Shown here in pieces: positions 12,660-60,388 of a stretch of 64,000 nucleotides of DNA (position 1 is the stretch's first letter; each line of letters begins with the position of its first letter). The notes under the pieces are model-generated. The model did not search any database. It saw only the letters and a program-made list of their open reading frames with translations, and had not been told where the DNA came from. Source of the stretch: Onchidella celtica (taxonomy: Eukaryota; Mollusca; Gastropoda; Systellommatophora; Onchidiidae); assembly GCA_963931925.1 (NCBI GenBank), contig OZ007573.1, positions 42,235,711 to 42,299,710 on the forward strand. Direction: 5' to 3'. The translations under genes and the position numbers were made by a program.

Positions 12660-13134
12660 GTTTTTCATTCATACCCTGTTCAATTCTTCGAACATAGCAA
12701 AATGCGGCATTCGTTAGTTCGACAGTTCCTACAAAAATCTACCAGAAAATCCTGCAGTTTTTTTCCTTCTCCGATCAGGAACCTGGAGCGCATGGCCATT
12801 TCCCTGTAACCACCGTGGAACAAGTGTGGAGTCACAGAGACCTTTTCCGGCCGGGCCTGCGATAAGTGGCGAAAGAATCCCCCCCCCCCCTTCTACCCCA
12901 GGGGCCCCCCTTGGTGGAGGCAACAAAAGCGATAGTGTAACATTAAACCTTGTCAGATAACCCACGAGGGGAAATGGAAAATGAGCAGGGTGGTATAGAG
13001 CACAACACAAACGGACATCTAAAAAACACAAACTCTGACACAATCTGGGAGAAAGACAATGAGAGGACAATGTTTTACATTCTGAAATACGCTACTAGCC
13101 TTGAGTAACAACAAAACCAGCAGAGGCGACAATA
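12660..13134. other. Unassigned GC-richer stretch
   Basis: More GC-rich than the surroundings at about 12765-12930, with a C run near 12880-12890. No gene is recognised. Confidence 0.4.
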
Positions 13135-13284
13135 ACTTTAGCACAGATTGACACGCTGGTCTAGAAGCAAAGTGCTCGCCTCTCATGCCGAAGGTACCCG
13201 GTTCGATCCCCGCTCGGTGCAGGCATGTTGAACTTTTTGGGGTCACCTGTCACCTGTCACCTGTCGGCTTCATCGTCATCGATG

Positions 13285-13400
13285 TTAGCTGCTACAGTGG
13301 ATGTCACGACAAAATCTCCTCCACCCAATCCTGTCCTTAGCTTTCCTAGTTAGTTCACTTATTTCCAGCTGGCTGACTTTCTTGATGTTATCGTGATATG
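13285..13400 (-). pseudogene. LINE RT C-terminus, beyond the solo LTR
   Basis: When the LTR and one copy of its 5-bp duplication are skipped, the LINE frame continues uninterrupted: PPITY, then HDNIKKVSQLEISELTRKAK, then DRIGWRRFCRDIHCSS and a TAA at 13287-13285. The seamless frame independently supports the LTR boundaries at 13401 and 14634. It is too short and Met-less to appear as a gene on its own. Confidence 0.85.
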
Positions 13401-14634
13401 TGTCAAGAACAGATTTGATTCATAAATGTTTCCACTGAGTAAATTTTTGTGAGAGAGCAGTGAGTAATTTTTACAAACGTAATCATTGTGCGAGCCAGCA
13501 TAACTTGGTCTCGTAAACAATTTGTTTTGAACAGTTTTTTTCCTAATAGATAGACAGAAGATGTGGGGAAGGTAGACGGACAGCGTAAGTGTGCATGACT
13601 GAGCACTTTTTATATCTCGTGTTTTGAACTAGGTTTAGTAGAGAGGGAAGGGGTGAGTAGGAATTAAATGTTATTGAGACGTCTGTTGACGTACAGAAAA
13701 TCCGTGATCCAGAGTAAAAGCTCGGGGTTTTGAACATGTTAAGAATTTATTGCTATAAAATAACATTTTATTGTCTTGAGTGATTCGACCTTTGATGTCG
13801 ACCCAAGGTCGTTGCGTAGGGCTGTTACTTAAAATAACTCGGTTCGGCAGCTGAGCTAGAGGTGGTTGCACCAATCAAATGTATGAATCTGGACGGAAGG
13901 TCGAGACATAGCTTTAGTATTTAAACCCGTGCAGAGCTTAGTTAGAGGCCACATATAGACAATCCATTTACGAGGTGGACGGCGATAGTCCTCAGCCAGA
14001 TGAGAGACATTTAAGACGCAGTTGAGCAGTCCATATTGTGAGGAGCCTGATTTAAAGCTCCAGAGCCTAAGCTACTTGGTTTGATATGAACCCACAGCGT
14101 TTACATCCAGCGCTCTCACTCCTAGTGAGGGCCTCATGGTGAGAGTCCATACTAATTTGTAATGATGAAAGTGAACCGTTCTACTTACTTTTGAAGACAG
14201 TTTCAGAGCTACCGCCAGACAACGCATGGTTGTACAAGCATTCTCCATGGCGTGTCTAGAGGAAATGTCCATATCATAACATGTCTCATTGAATTAATAG
14301 AATTTAAACTGTTATATCCGTCGCCACTTGCGCGGATTCTATTTGGCATATAACTCATATGATCTGCAAGTAGTTAGAGTGAATAAGTTAGTCTTTATAG
14401 AAAGCTGTAGTTTCATTAGTTAGATTCAGTTGCCTTTGAATTGATATTTATATTTATAATTATATTTGTTACATTAATTCCTGTAATTAAACTGCCCTAC
14501 AGTTCTGCTAAAAATCAAAGCAATTGATTTATTTAGTTTTTAGAGTGCAAGTATTTTTTTGTGTTCGTCGATTGTGGGAGCGGACCTCGAAAGAGTGTCA
14601 GTCGAATTCTCCCCATCTAACCCACATCGCGACA
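13401..14634 (+). mobile_element. Solo LTR (1234 bp) inserted in the LINE, 5-bp target duplication
   Basis: Begins tgtcaagaac and ends catcgcgaca, and is flanked by atatg at 13396-13400 and 14635-14639. Shared with the LTR at 26318-27764: a ggaaggggtgagta/agaaggggtgaata block, ttgcaccaatcaaat, ctggacgg and a TATA-like element. There is no internal gag-pol, so it is a recombination product. Insertion interrupts the LINE codons for ITY/H, so the LTR is younger than the LINE. Confidence 0.9.
13869..13925 (+). promoter_or_regulatory. CCAAT and TATA-like elements of the LTR
   Basis: caccaatcaaat at 13869-13880 is followed about 40 bp later by tagtatttaaac. The LTR at 26.3 kb keeps the same pair (ccaatcaaat near 26764, then gtataaaagc at 26811). 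Conservation between copies fits a polymerase II promoter in U3. Confidence 0.4.
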
Positions 14635-15219
14635 ATATGTAATGGGTGGTCTTCCTTGTTTTCTCTTTGTTTCTGTCTTTCCTTGAAGGATTGATATCAT
14701 AAGGGCCGTGCTTTTGTTTCGGGCCGCGTGGCCGATGTATGCAAGTCTTCTTTTATTTATTTCAGGTGTTATTCTTCTGGTGGTGCCAAGCTGTTCTAAG
14801 ATGCTTGTATTTGTTCTCCTTTCTGTCCAACTTATTCTGAGTAGCCTTCTGTAAAGCCACATTTCAGCTGCCTCCAATCTTGTTATGTCTGCCTTTTTGA
14901 GTGTCCAGGCTTCACAACCATATAGTAGGACTGGCCAGATCAAGCACTTAAGTATGTTCACTTTGAGGTCCGTTGGTGTGCCTCTATCCTTCCAAATGTT
15001 GTTTAGTTGAACCATTTTGTGTTTTGCCATTCCTATCCTTGTTTTTATGTCCTTTGAGCAGCTTCCATCTTGCGATTTATGTGATCCTAGGTATTTGAAA
15101 TCAGTCACTTTTTCTAGTGCTGTTTTGTTTACTAGTATCTCCTGGTGTTCATGGTGCCCTGTTCCAGTATGCATGACTTTCGTTTTCTTAGCATTTAGGT
15201 GTAGGCTTGCCCGCTTCAT
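14635..15219 (-). pseudogene. LINE RT C-terminal part, after frameshift
   Basis: Continues the RT in a different frame: LHLNAKKTKVM, FKYLGS, LLYGCEAWTL, WLYRRLLRISW and RRLAYIGHAAR, then KQGRPPITY at the insertion point of the solo LTR. These are standard thumb and C-terminal landmarks of RTE/CR1-like LINE proteins. The open frame formally runs to 14617, into the LTR, but codons past 14635 are not LINE sequence. Confidence 0.88.
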
Positions 15220-15957
15220 CCACTCTGTGCAACACTCTTTTCATGCTGGTGATGTTATCTGACATGAGAGCTGTGTCATCAGCGTAGCGAAGGTTTGTGA
15301 TGTTTCGGCTTCCGATCTTTATTCCCATATCTTCTATGTCTGCGTTTCTCATGATCTGCTCAGTATAAATATTGAAAAGATGAGGTGAAAGTATGCAACC
15401 CTGTCTGACTCCTTTCTCGGTGTTGAAATATGGACAGTTCTCATTGTTCCATCTAATCGTTGCCTTTTGTTCGTGGTATAGTGCAGCGATGAGGGTCACA
15501 AGGTGTTTCGGGAATCCCATCTTAATCATTATATCGAACAGGTGATGGTGCCTAACGCTGTCGAACGCTTTGCTGTAGTCTATGAACGTGATGAAGGCTT
15601 CGTTTCCATTGCTTCTTATCTGTTCAATCATTATTTGTAGTATGAAGAGCATGTCAGCGGTTCCTCTGTTGGTCCTGTAGCCAGCTTGACATTCTGATAG
15701 TTCCTCTTCTACCTTAGATTTCATTCTGTTGAGTATGATGATGAGCAGGATTTTGCTGGTGTGACTGATGAGGGCGATGGTTCTATAATTTCCACAGTCT
15801 TTGACATTGCCGCTTTTGTATAGCATGACGAATTCTTGTAGCTTCCAGTCTGTTGGCCATTCATTTGTCTGCCAAATTTTGCAGATCATTTGGTGGAGTG
15901 CTTTTATTCCTGATTCGCTGGTATGTTTCAGGAGTTCACCTGGTATGTTGTCTAATC
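15188..15957 (-). pseudogene. LINE reverse transcriptase, catalytic domain (5' part of broken ORF)
   Basis: RT fingers/palm region of a non-LTR retrotransposon. Counting from the Met at 15889, motif FIDYSKAFDSV lies at residues 102-112 (first catalytic Asp 104), RQGCILSP at 162-169 and YADD at 202-205 (catalytic Asp pair 204/205). An AGYRTNRGT motif is at 69-77. The open frame extends upstream of that Met to 15957 without a start, because the element is 5'-truncated. All catalytic residues are intact. A one-base frameshift near 15215 moves the downstream part into another frame, so the protein is not continuous. The element would act in target-primed reverse transcription of its own RNA. The endonuclease domain is missing. 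Confidence 0.9.
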
Positions 15958-16251
15958 CAGGGGGGTAAAATTCCTGTCCCTGATCCTACGGTAGGTAGGC
16001 TGGAGAACTTAGTTTTCTCGGATAAGAACGAAAAACTCGGAGGGCCGGTTTGTATGTTGCGGACGTTAAAGATACCTTGGCAGTTGAAAGTCGAGAAGAG
16101 CAGGCTGAACAAGGCCGCAGCCTGGACAAAATTCTAAATAACTAATTCCTACCACCACAAAACACAAAAACAAAAACAAGAAAAGTGAGGTGTTAATGCT
16201 ACGAGAAGTGAACCTACTAAAAAAAAAGACCTCAACACATTACTTTAGCAC

Positions 16252-16375
16252 CAACAACATTGGCATAAACCAAAGAAGACCAACAGTTTAGAACCTCAAA
16301 GACTGACAGTAACTCGGGAAATTTAAATTTCTTTTTTTTAAAATATTAATCCATTGCCATTCCATTATCATTTGC
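16252..16375. other. Short flank without features
   Basis: Sequence between the SINE target duplication and repeat P; nothing recognised. Confidence 0.4.
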
Positions 16376-16379
16376 ACTA

Positions 16380-16600
16380 ATGCAACGATATATTGCACGT
16401 TAATTACCTCCACTAATACTTTTATTGTGCACCATATTCTTTTTCTTATATCCCTTTCAAATTTCTAGTTATCTTGAAACTGAATAATGGCAAACGTACT
16501 TTTTAAAGTGTTGGTAGGACAAGTTTTTTCTCCCCTTCCATCGCCAATGAAGGTTTGTTAACATCTCAGCGGCATTCTTGCCCCGGTTGCTTTCTAACAC
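16380..16600 (+). repeat. Repeat P, copy 1
   Basis: Diverged match to 18990-19240. Shared landmarks are cacgttaattacct/cacgtcaattacct, ctgaataatggcaaacgta/atgaataatgacaaacgta, ccatcgccaat/ccatcgctaat and cttgcccngttgctttc. Noncoding. Confidence 0.6.
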
Positions 16601-22275: not shown

Positions 22276-22490
22276 AAAGCGTGCGTCGAGGCCTGGATTT
22301 ATAAACTTCAATAAGTACATGCACTCTTTTATGAGACAGGTGAGTAAACACATCACTAAAGACTGACAGAGACAGAAAAGGTAAATTTGCCTTGCTTGGA
22401 GTACCAAGGCAGTGGGGAGTGAGCAGCGATAGTTTTAGAGCAGCAGGCCTGTCCAACGTAGGCCGGATTCGTTGTTTTAGGCCTTATTTT
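22276..22490. other. Unassigned spacer
   Basis: No recognised feature before the SINE. Confidence 0.4.
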
Positions 22491-22494
22491 ATGA

Positions 22495-22829
22495 GGTTCG
22501 CTGCTCTTGGCCTCTACATCTCACTTTTCTTGTTCTTGTTACTGTGTGTTTTTGTGGTAGGGAATAGTTTTTCAGAATTTTGCCCGGGCAGCGGTTTTGT
22601 TCGACCTGCTCTTCTTGACGTTCAACTGCCAAGGTATCTTTAACGTGCGCAACGTCCACATGGGCCTTGCCTTCACATAGGTGCTCTATCCTACCTACCA
22701 TAGGATCGGGACAGGAATCCCCCCCCCCCCCCCCAAAAAAAAATCCAACATGCCTGCACTGACCAGGATCGAACCCGATACCTTCGGCATGACAGGCGAG
22801 CACCTTGCTTCTAGACCACCGTGTCCCTT
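22495..22829 (-). mobile_element. SINE family A copy
   Basis: Near full-length and antisense. From left to right it shows the 3' region (cacttttcttgttcttgtta), the body (tttgcccgggcagcg, ttcaactgccaaggtatct, ttaacgtgcgcaacgt), a long C tract at about 22719-22733 (oligo-G in the sense strand), and the tRNA-like head with inverted B-box (ggatcgaacc) and gcttctagaccacc. No clear target duplication. Confidence 0.85.
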
Positions 22830-31910: not shown

Positions 31911-32182
31911 TTCAATTTTGCCCGGGCAGCGGCCTTTCGGCCTGCTCTTTACGATTTCCAACTGCCAAGGTATCTTTAACGTGCGCAACGTGCACACGGG
32001 CCCTCCGAATTTTTTCGTCCTTATCCGAGAAGACTAGGTACTCGATCCTACCCCCCAATAGGACCAGGGACTTGAAAATATGAGAAAAATCCAATTTCCA
32101 ACATGCCTGCACTGCCCGGGTTTAGAAGCCGGGACCCTTGGCATGAGAGGCGAGCACCTTGCCTCTAGACCACCTGGTCCCC
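31911..32182 (-). mobile_element. SINE family A copy (subfamily without oligo-G)
   Basis: tttgcccgggcagcgg, tttccaactgccaaggtat, gtgcgcaacgtgcacacggg, then aatatgagaaaaatcc in place of the oligo-G tract, then the inverted tRNA-like head ending ccttgcctctagaccacc. The copy at 60120-60388 shares the aatatgagaaaaatc variant. Confidence 0.85.
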
Positions 32183-43870: not shown

Positions 43871-44212
43871 GGACACGTTAATCCAGAGGCAGGGTGCTCG
43901 CTTCTCATGCCGAAGGTACCGGGTTCAGTTCCCTATTGGTACAGGCATGTTGGAATTTTGGGGGGGGGGGGGAAATTCCTGTCTGTGGCCCTATGGTAAG
44001 TAGGATCGAGCACCTAGTCTTCTCGGATAAGGACGAAAAACTTGGATTGCCTGCCTGCACGTTGCACAAGTTAATGATACCTTGGCAGTTGGAAATCGAA
44101 AAGAACAGGCCTAACAAGGCCGCTGGACGGGCAATTGAGAAAAACAATAGAAAACCTACCATAAATGTCAAGAGCAGCGAACCTCCTACTATACAATAAA
44201 GACCCAAAACCA
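43871..44212 (+). mobile_element. SINE family A, full-length copy with 15-bp target duplication
   Basis: 342 bp, flanked by identical actgtccgagttagt at 43856-43870 and 44213-44227. Order: tRNA-like head (43871-43950, B-box-like ggttcagttcc), catgttgg, a G run of about 13 (43957-43970), cctatggtaagtaggatcga, agtcttctcggataaggacg, gataccttggcagttgga, then an A-rich 3' tail. The intact, precise duplication makes this the reference copy for the family and shows that it moves by target-primed reverse transcription, using LINE machinery. Confidence 0.93.
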
Positions 44213-44582: not shown

Positions 44583-45145
44583 GGGATACGCTGTTCTAGA
44601 GGCAAGGTGCTCGCCTCTAATGCCGAAGGTACCGGGTTCGATCCCTGGTCGATGCAGGCATGTTGGAATTTCTTTTGGGGGAAAAATTCCTCTCCCTGAT
44701 CCTATGGTAGATAGGATCGAGCACCTAGTCTTCTCGGATAAGGACTGAACGCTGGGAGGGTCGGTGTGCACGTTGGGCATAATAATTCAAGTTCAAGTTC
44801 AAGTTTAGTTTATTGTAGGCCTAACGGCCAATGCAAAATACACAGAAGAATCATGTAAACAATCTTTGAAAACATTACTAACAAACAAACAGACAAAACG
44901 CACGGTCATTCACTCTCTCCGCTCCCTGCTGCCTGCTACAATTTATACACTTACTTACAATCGTTTACAATAAAAAAGCTACCTTGGCAGTTGAAAGTCG
45001 AGAAGAGCAGGCCGAACAAGGCCGCTGCCCCGGGCAAAATTCTAACAAACAAATCCCTACCACAAAAACACACAGTAACAAGAACAAGAAAAGTAAGGTG
45101 CATAATGTCAAGAGCAGGGAATTTCCTAAAATAAAGACCTAAACA
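44583..45145 (+). mobile_element. SINE family A copy, interrupted by repeat B
   Basis: The head and body are at 44583-44780 (B-box ggttcgatccc at 44635-44645; the oligo-G is replaced by ttttgggggaaaaa) and the SINE resumes at 44973 (ctaccttggcagttgaaagt, gagaagagcaggccgaaca). It ends in the usual tail (aagagcaggga, aataaagacctaaac). The break corresponds to the cacgttgcgcacgttaaagat region of intact copies. Confidence 0.85.
44785..44972 (+). repeat. Repeat B, copy 2, nested in the SINE
   Basis: Begins with three ttcaag units, then tttagtttattgtaggccta, acggccaatgcaaaatacac, and ends near ttacaataaaaaag. Collinear with the copy at 38966-39146. Confidence 0.75.
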
Positions 45146-45755
45146 CACACACATTTCTTCAGAAGACCGTCATTCATTTCCTTCTCCCCTTTCCATTCTT
45201 TCCGAATCCTTTCGATACCCCCCCCCCCCCCACATATCTCCCAGCTAGCGCAGACTGTCCAGGATATCAGGAGATTATGGATGAAAGTAAAAGCCAGGCA
45301 GGGGCCATGTGGTCGTAGCATCAGGTGAATCTGATTGAATGGTGAACCAGCTTTAAGTTTTGTGTTCATCTTAGCTAGTGAACCGGTGGATCTGTGCTGC
45401 ACTTGGATTGATTGGTTGTTTGGTTGATTGCCTTGAATGGTTTGTTGGCTGCTTGGTTGATCGATATGTCATTTTGTGTGATTGTGTTATTGGCTGGTTG
45501 ATGTTTTGACCCAGGCATGAAAAAGAATCTGTAATACAATATAACGGTGGATTCAATATATCACATCGGTCTTTTATCTTCTTACACACTGCTAGAACAT
45601 CATCCTAATATAAGTAAGTAAAATACACGGTGTAGCAAGGCATGGTTGTATATCAAAAGATCCTATTCCTGTGCCGTAATAGAGTTTCAAATAATGCACT
45701 GTGCGTTTTAGAGGTTTAACCAAGCAAATGGTCACTAAGCCAATGCTTGATTGGT
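45146..45755. other. Unassigned spacer with tggttga-rich area
   Basis: C run at 45218-45230; ttggttgattg-like degenerate repeats at 45405-45500 and 45740-45775 that resemble the sequence from which the next minisatellite grew. No gene. Confidence 0.4.
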
Positions 45756-46465: not shown

Positions 46466-46863
46466 CGGCAGGTGGAAATTCGCTGGTCTTGGCATTTACA
46501 CTTCACTTTTCTTGTTTTTTTTTTTTTTTTGGTCTTATTTATTTATTTTTCTTGTTAATGTTTTTGTGTGTTTTTGTGGTCGGAATTTTTTCTTCTTTAA
46601 ATTTTGCCCGTGGAGCGGCCTTGTTATGCCTGCTCTTCTCGATTTCCAACTGCCAAGGTATCTTTAACGTGCCCAACGTGCACACGAGCCCTCCGAGTCT
46701 TTCGTCATTATCCAAGAAGACTAGGTGCTCGATCCTACTTACCATAGGATCAAGGACAGGAGGTTATCCCCCCAAACTCCAACATGCCTGCATCGACCGG
46801 GAGTCGATCCCGGTACCTTCGGCAAGAGAGGCGAGCACCTTGCCACTAGACCACCATGTCGCC
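46466..46863 (-). mobile_element. SINE family A copy
   Basis: 3' region at left (cacttttcttg, T run, ttgtgtgtttttgtggtcgg), body (gatttccaactgccaaggta, gaagactaggtgctcgatcc), a shortened C tract, and inverted head (gagtcgatcccggtaccttc, ccactagaccacc). It abuts the minisatellite. Confidence 0.85.
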
Positions 46864-59944: not shown

Positions 59945-60388
59945 TATTTGTATTTGTATTTGTATACTACTTTAATCCCATTTGGGCAATTTGCCTTTGT
60001 GTCATTGCATCCAGTTACACGTCGTTGCCACAGTGCAGCTCCGGTAGGCGTTTTTTTTTTTTTAGGGGGGCGGGGGATGAGAGGGGGAGGGGGGGGGAGT
60101 GGATGAATTTTATTGATTTTTGCCCGGGCAGCTACCTGTTCGGCCTGCTCTTTTCGATTTCCAACTGCCAAAGTATCTTTAACGTGCGCAATGTGCACAA
60201 GGGCCCTCCGAATTTTTCGTCCTTATCCGAGAAGACTAGGTATTCGATCCTACCCCCTCAATAGGATCAGGGACACGAAAATATGAGAAAAATCACAAGC
60301 TTCCAACATGCCTGCACCGGCCGGGTTTTGAACCCGGGACCCTTGGCATGAGAGGCGAGCACCCCTTGCCTCTAGACCACCTTGTTCA
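59945..60388 (-). mobile_element. SINE family A copy (subfamily without oligo-G)
   Basis: Body 60120-60388 as in the 31.9 kb copy, including aatatgagaaaaatc, with inverted B-box (gttttgaacccgg) and gcctctagaccacc head. To its left, tatttgtatttgtatttgta and gcccaaatgg-type sequence (reverse strand) may be a longer 3' tail with ATACAA-type repeats; its membership is less certain. Confidence 0.8.

Follow-up and report, generated by a model that had tools for sequence, protein, structure and literature searches.

How do a SINE, a LINE and a long terminal repeat (LTR) come to lie one inside another within 3.1 kb of the genome of the gastropod Onchidella celtica, and can the order of their arrival be read from the sequence? 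The window, meaning the whole 64,000-nucleotide stretch that was analysed (C7:42235711-42299710), belongs to a genome of 1.14 Gb in 43 contigs. Its positions 12900-16500 were inspected completely, and all coordinates below are those of the window unless another locus is named. The simplest history that fits, and one that the evidence supports, is a SINE, then a LINE, then an LTR element, then a solo LTR. We hold with high confidence that three independent retrotranspositions struck one place and that a single recombination followed. Counted with the layers inserted into it, the SINE occupies 13145-16241.

The outer SINE

The SINE is bounded by a perfect 10-bp target-site duplication, ACTTTAGCAC, at 13135-13144 and again, letter for letter, at 16242-16251 (both plus strand). 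These are the flanking repeats, 3.1 kb apart, that had been claimed in the original prediction. The probability that a given 10-mer recurs by chance in a given 30-bp stretch is 0.0004, as estimated from 200,000 random placements within the window.

Between the duplications lie two SINE parts, both on the plus strand. The 5′ part (13145-13241), delimited by genomic matches and a 26-copy alignment, extends from the tRNA-like head to a T/G run, and the 3′ part (15960-16241) extends from the G run to the SINE 3′ end, four of its G being equally attributable to the LINE. Among the best 40 genomic matches to the left part, 39 are at other places, with 88-95% identity. The 41 matches listed for the right part include the window itself and 40 others, whose alignments cover the query wholly or partly at 79-86% identity. 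The two parts adjoin, within 150 bases, in 32 of the 36 other genomic loci checked; in the remaining four (L048, L050, L060 and L064) the left part was not found at E 1e-5. Six of the 32 adjoining loci were dropped for length, and the other 26 passed the length filter and were aligned. At the join point these copies have a T-run and then a G-run of variable length, which places the LINE insertion in the oligo-G region of the SINE, as had been proposed. Skipping the LINE restores a continuous SINE, again as proposed, since the parts adjoin elsewhere and the halves match end to end.

The window SINE differs from the majority base at 40 of 361 columns (11.1%), the columns being those in which at least 14 of the 26 copies agree, and for the 26 other copies the median is 11.1% and the extremes are 8.0% and 14.7%. 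Its head has A-box-like and B-box-like motifs, recognised by eye. Judged by its sequence features (the tRNA-like head, seen by eye, the many dispersed copies and the target duplication), the SINE is tRNA-derived. Head, high copy number and duplication are those of known tRNA-derived SINEs, but the head here had no Rfam match at E 0.1 and no tRNA was called in it by ARAGORN.

The window holds further copies of the same SINE at about 76-80% identity (22484-22825, 31914-32172, 43872-44123, 46547-46860 and 60105-60385). A second split SINE of the family is found at 44585-45147, with parts at 44585-44775 and 44975-45147. The roughly 200 bp between them starts with short CAAGTT-type repeats, so that another nested insertion is likely there.

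The LINE within the SINE

The LINE lies on the minus strand in two parts. Its 5′ part (14635-15959) holds a reverse transcriptase domain and a C-terminal region, as identified by RVT_1 and a 12-copy alignment, and its 3′ part (13243-13400) holds the C-terminal codons past the LTR site, the stop and a short 3′ tail. The RVT_1 match has E=1.6e-31 (15188-15985, minus strand); in another copy of the family, L082, it has E=1.5e-38. The comparison set was 12 of the 39 other listed copies, all tied at the best score. Every one of the 12 extends upstream of the point where the window copy starts, at which they read CCCCTGGATT, and the window LINE is therefore 5′-truncated. This and the minus-strand RVT_1 bear out the claim of an antisense, 5′-truncated LINE.

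CA at 15958-15959 belongs to the LINE and the G at 15960-15963 fit LINE and SINE alike, so the 5′ edge is at 15959-15963; the 3′ edge is at 13242-13244. The span 13242-15957 given in the original prediction was right at its 3′ edge and fell 2-6 bases short at its 5′ edge. The tail consists of 3.4 copies of a 7-bp tandem unit (13242-13265, minus strand; Tandem Repeats Finder) that abuts GGGG, and other aligned copies end in similar short tails of differing length. The longest fitting target duplication is GGGGT, at 13239-13243 and 15962-15966, an ambiguous assignment, as part of it may belong to the oligo-G run or to the LINE tail; inside the G run an unambiguous LINE target duplication was not obtainable. 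Three retrieved copies have both ends visible. In L070 the element is flanked by direct repeats of 9 to 11 bp (two of the 11 bp possibly being tail), L075 has no convincing target duplication, only a shared 5-mer partly inside the element, and in L077 the two flanks share no repeat of at least 5 bp.

Compared with the 12 other copies, the LINE of the window shows 4 substitutions in about 1462 non-tail bases (about 0.27%) and one 8-bp deletion, a count that excludes 4 further differences in the variable tail. The deletion, at 15206-15207 (minus strand; the exact place is alignment-dependent), distinguishes the window from all 12 other copies and, quite apart from the LTR, disrupts the LINE frame, giving two open reading frames at 15188-15985 and 14617-15240. 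When the LTR is skipped, the LINE reads ...GRPPITY-HDNIKK...HCSS-stop. The claim that skipping the LTR restores the LINE frame holds for the C-terminal frame, from ITY-HDN to the stop, and fails for the frame as a whole at the 8-bp deletion.

The LINE is likely RTE-like, with what we take to be a likeness to BovB. Its 3′ tail is a short tandem repeat and not poly(A). Passages of PMC2887409 describe short tandem-repeat 3′ tails in RTE-clade LINEs, and, like the elements treated in passages of PMC2887409 and PMC13295347, the window LINE has its short 3′ tandem repeat soon after the stop codon; the tail unit here is 7 bp. The direct repeat around L070 is a further point of likeness to RTE-clade LINEs, and the 7-bp unit and the lack of a convincing duplication in L075 and L077 are points of difference. 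In L082, checked for an APE-type endonuclease ahead of the reverse transcriptase, the 182-aa frame upstream of the reverse transcriptase frame matched no Pfam family at E 0.001, and this copy is perhaps not full-length. Upstream of the LINE copy, L082 also has an open reading frame (2-742 of that locus) in which a DDE_Tnp_1_7 transposase domain, presumably of piggyBac type, ends (E=2.6e-9).

The solo LTR and its family

The innermost layer is an LTR of 1234 bp (13401-14634, plus strand) that starts with TGTC and ends with GACA, identified by genomic matches, its duplications and the internal domains of longer copies. ATATG stands on both sides of it, at 13396-13400 and 14635-14639 (plus strand), in agreement with the claim of a solo LTR with such duplications inside the LINE. 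Of its best 40 genomic matches 39 are at other places, at 98-99% identity. The 30 best-scoring loci, window included, are mostly solo, a share that is not a genome-wide estimate. The 5-bp duplication at the LTR ends is exact in 22 of the 30 (21 of the 29 others) and has one mismatch in three of the 29 (L017, L020 and L033). Five of the 29 (L013, L018, L021, L024 and L037) adjoin element-internal sequence. Two of these five, L013 and L024, have an open reading frame for reverse transcriptase and RNase H beside the LTR, that of L024 being nearly the same by eye; L018, which is also a 3′ LTR, has no such frame in its 1.5 kb. The window LTR differs from the column majority of the 30 at 9 positions, the most of any copy (others 1-7), comprising 6 private substitutions (0.49% of 1234), 1 private deletion and 2 shared states.

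The internal domains can be followed on contig C16. There an 851-aa open reading frame (L081, minus strand) contains Integrase_H2C2 (5.7e-20), rve (4.2e-13) and Integrase_p58_C (3.5e-8). Next comes a frame with the start of RVT_1 (7.6e-11; L081:1-339, minus strand). The series continues in L013, where the RVT_1 end (1.1e-13) is followed by RT_RNaseH (2.2e-35), and closes with the 3′ LTR. Integrase is upstream of reverse transcriptase, in the sense of the LTR, on this one contiguous stretch, which may be rearranged because the 5-bp flanks of its two LTRs (L021 and L013) differ. Integrase before reverse transcriptase is the mark of the Gmr1 clade among Gypsy elements in passages of PMC6238403 and PMC8220671; an annelid is among its reported hosts in the latter paper, and PMC8556966 places it in several phyla. 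Going by domain order, we assign the LTR to a young, abundant Ty3/Gypsy family with Gmr1-type order. As in the Gmr1 clade, the integrase domains precede reverse transcriptase and RNase H, and the 3′ LTR comes last; the likeness to the elements of PMC6238403 and PMC8220671 is one of domain order. The family is of a known kind, since the integrase-first order has already been reported for this clade in other animals.

Recombination between two LTRs is the usual known route to a solo LTR. That route, taken with the longer copies of the family, points to LTR-LTR recombination at this locus as well. The best-surviving alternative is that the single LTR arose otherwise, for instance if an LTR-only product inserted or gene conversion took place, and the locus has no LTR pair that would show the recombination directly. 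Against this stand the copies in the same genome that border internal sequence and the solo copies with ordinary 5-bp duplications, and we consider such an origin very improbable.

Junctions and flanks across the genome

Each of the four junctions was sought in the 1.14 Gb with up to 2 mismatches. The left and right LTR-LINE junctions have one match each, both at the window, and so do the left and right LINE-SINE junctions. The LTR-free LINE site, at the same tolerance, has 1431 genomic matches (688 forward and 743 reverse), the reversed-pattern control having 0, and all 12 other LINE copies align without a gap across the LTR site. The outer flanks (12900-13144 and 16242-16600) match only themselves, which is not strict proof of a single copy because very common words were skipped in the genome search; these flank searches found no deeper host element beneath the SINE.

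Near-identical copies of the LINE and the LTR across the genome are where assemblers fail, so a misjoin of unrelated repeat copies has to be weighed. From a misjoin one would not expect perfect duplications of 10 bp and 5 bp at the predicted places, nor SINE halves that match end to end, and we give this explanation a very small chance. Weaker still, and in our view virtually without prospect, is a composite that moved or was duplicated as one unit, whether as a segmental duplication, a satellite or a co-mobilised chimera: nothing was found for it, all three families being abundant with many copies of each part, and the single-match junctions and self-only flanks refute it within this assembly. 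The original prediction had named beforehand, as the sign of such a unit, the same junctions at many loci, and each of the four occurs once in the genome.

Order and age of the insertions

In the history that fits best, the tRNA-derived SINE inserted first, making its 10-bp target duplication. Much later, a 5′-truncated copy of the RTE-like LINE was reverse-transcribed in antisense into the oligo-G run of the SINE, with a short microhomology of four C/G at the truncated end of the LINE. Soon after, the Ty3/Gypsy element with Gmr1-type domain order entered the LINE with a 5-bp duplication, and lastly its two LTRs would have recombined to leave one. The first three steps are recorded in the interrupted sequences, the target duplications (that of the second step being ambiguous) and the unique junctions. 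The claimed order is upheld in that the interrupted sequences are continuous elsewhere, the junctions are unique and the SINE is the most diverged layer; for the last step, from LTR element to solo LTR, we infer the event.

Divergence is 11% for the SINE, about 0.27% for the LINE and 0.49% for the LTR, figures that express recent change in the window copy and not family age because the compared copies are near relatives. They support a SINE far older than the LINE and the LTR, as far as sequence divergence can tell. The LTR has slightly more private substitutions than the LINE that encloses it (6/1234 versus 4/1462), a difference that is not significant (Fisher p=0.53), so that the order of these two follows from nesting alone. 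The excess runs opposite to a naive clock, and variants of an LTR can predate its insertion. The window LTR is, besides, the most divergent of the 30 compared, the others having been chosen for their high scores. Dating the LINE against the LTR by substitutions was dropped as not decisive.

An inner element is younger than the one it interrupts, and the same logic orders whole families. TinT (PMC3014933) and REANNOTATE (PMC2672092) likewise use nested transposable elements as relative clocks; here, by comparison, a single locus with three retroelement classes was resolved by hand to the base.

Significance of the locus

This is an ordinary nested insertion. Nesting is common, and what is unusual is how readable the order of events is. 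The locus therefore carries little weight as a biological discovery and is of practical use. With its near-undiverged inner layers, it orders two young families against an old SINE and offers a presence/absence marker, and following it up brought to light a Ty3/Gypsy family, young and abundant, in which integrase comes first, the less usual order. We think it possible, if somewhat doubtful, that the LINE family and the LTR family with Gmr1-type order are expanding now or were very recently, and that the inner insertions, perhaps even the reduction to a single LTR, are so recent that they may still be polymorphic in the living species. If so, alleles with the full element, with the solo LTR and with an empty site could occur side by side, and one could measure directly how fast solo LTRs form.
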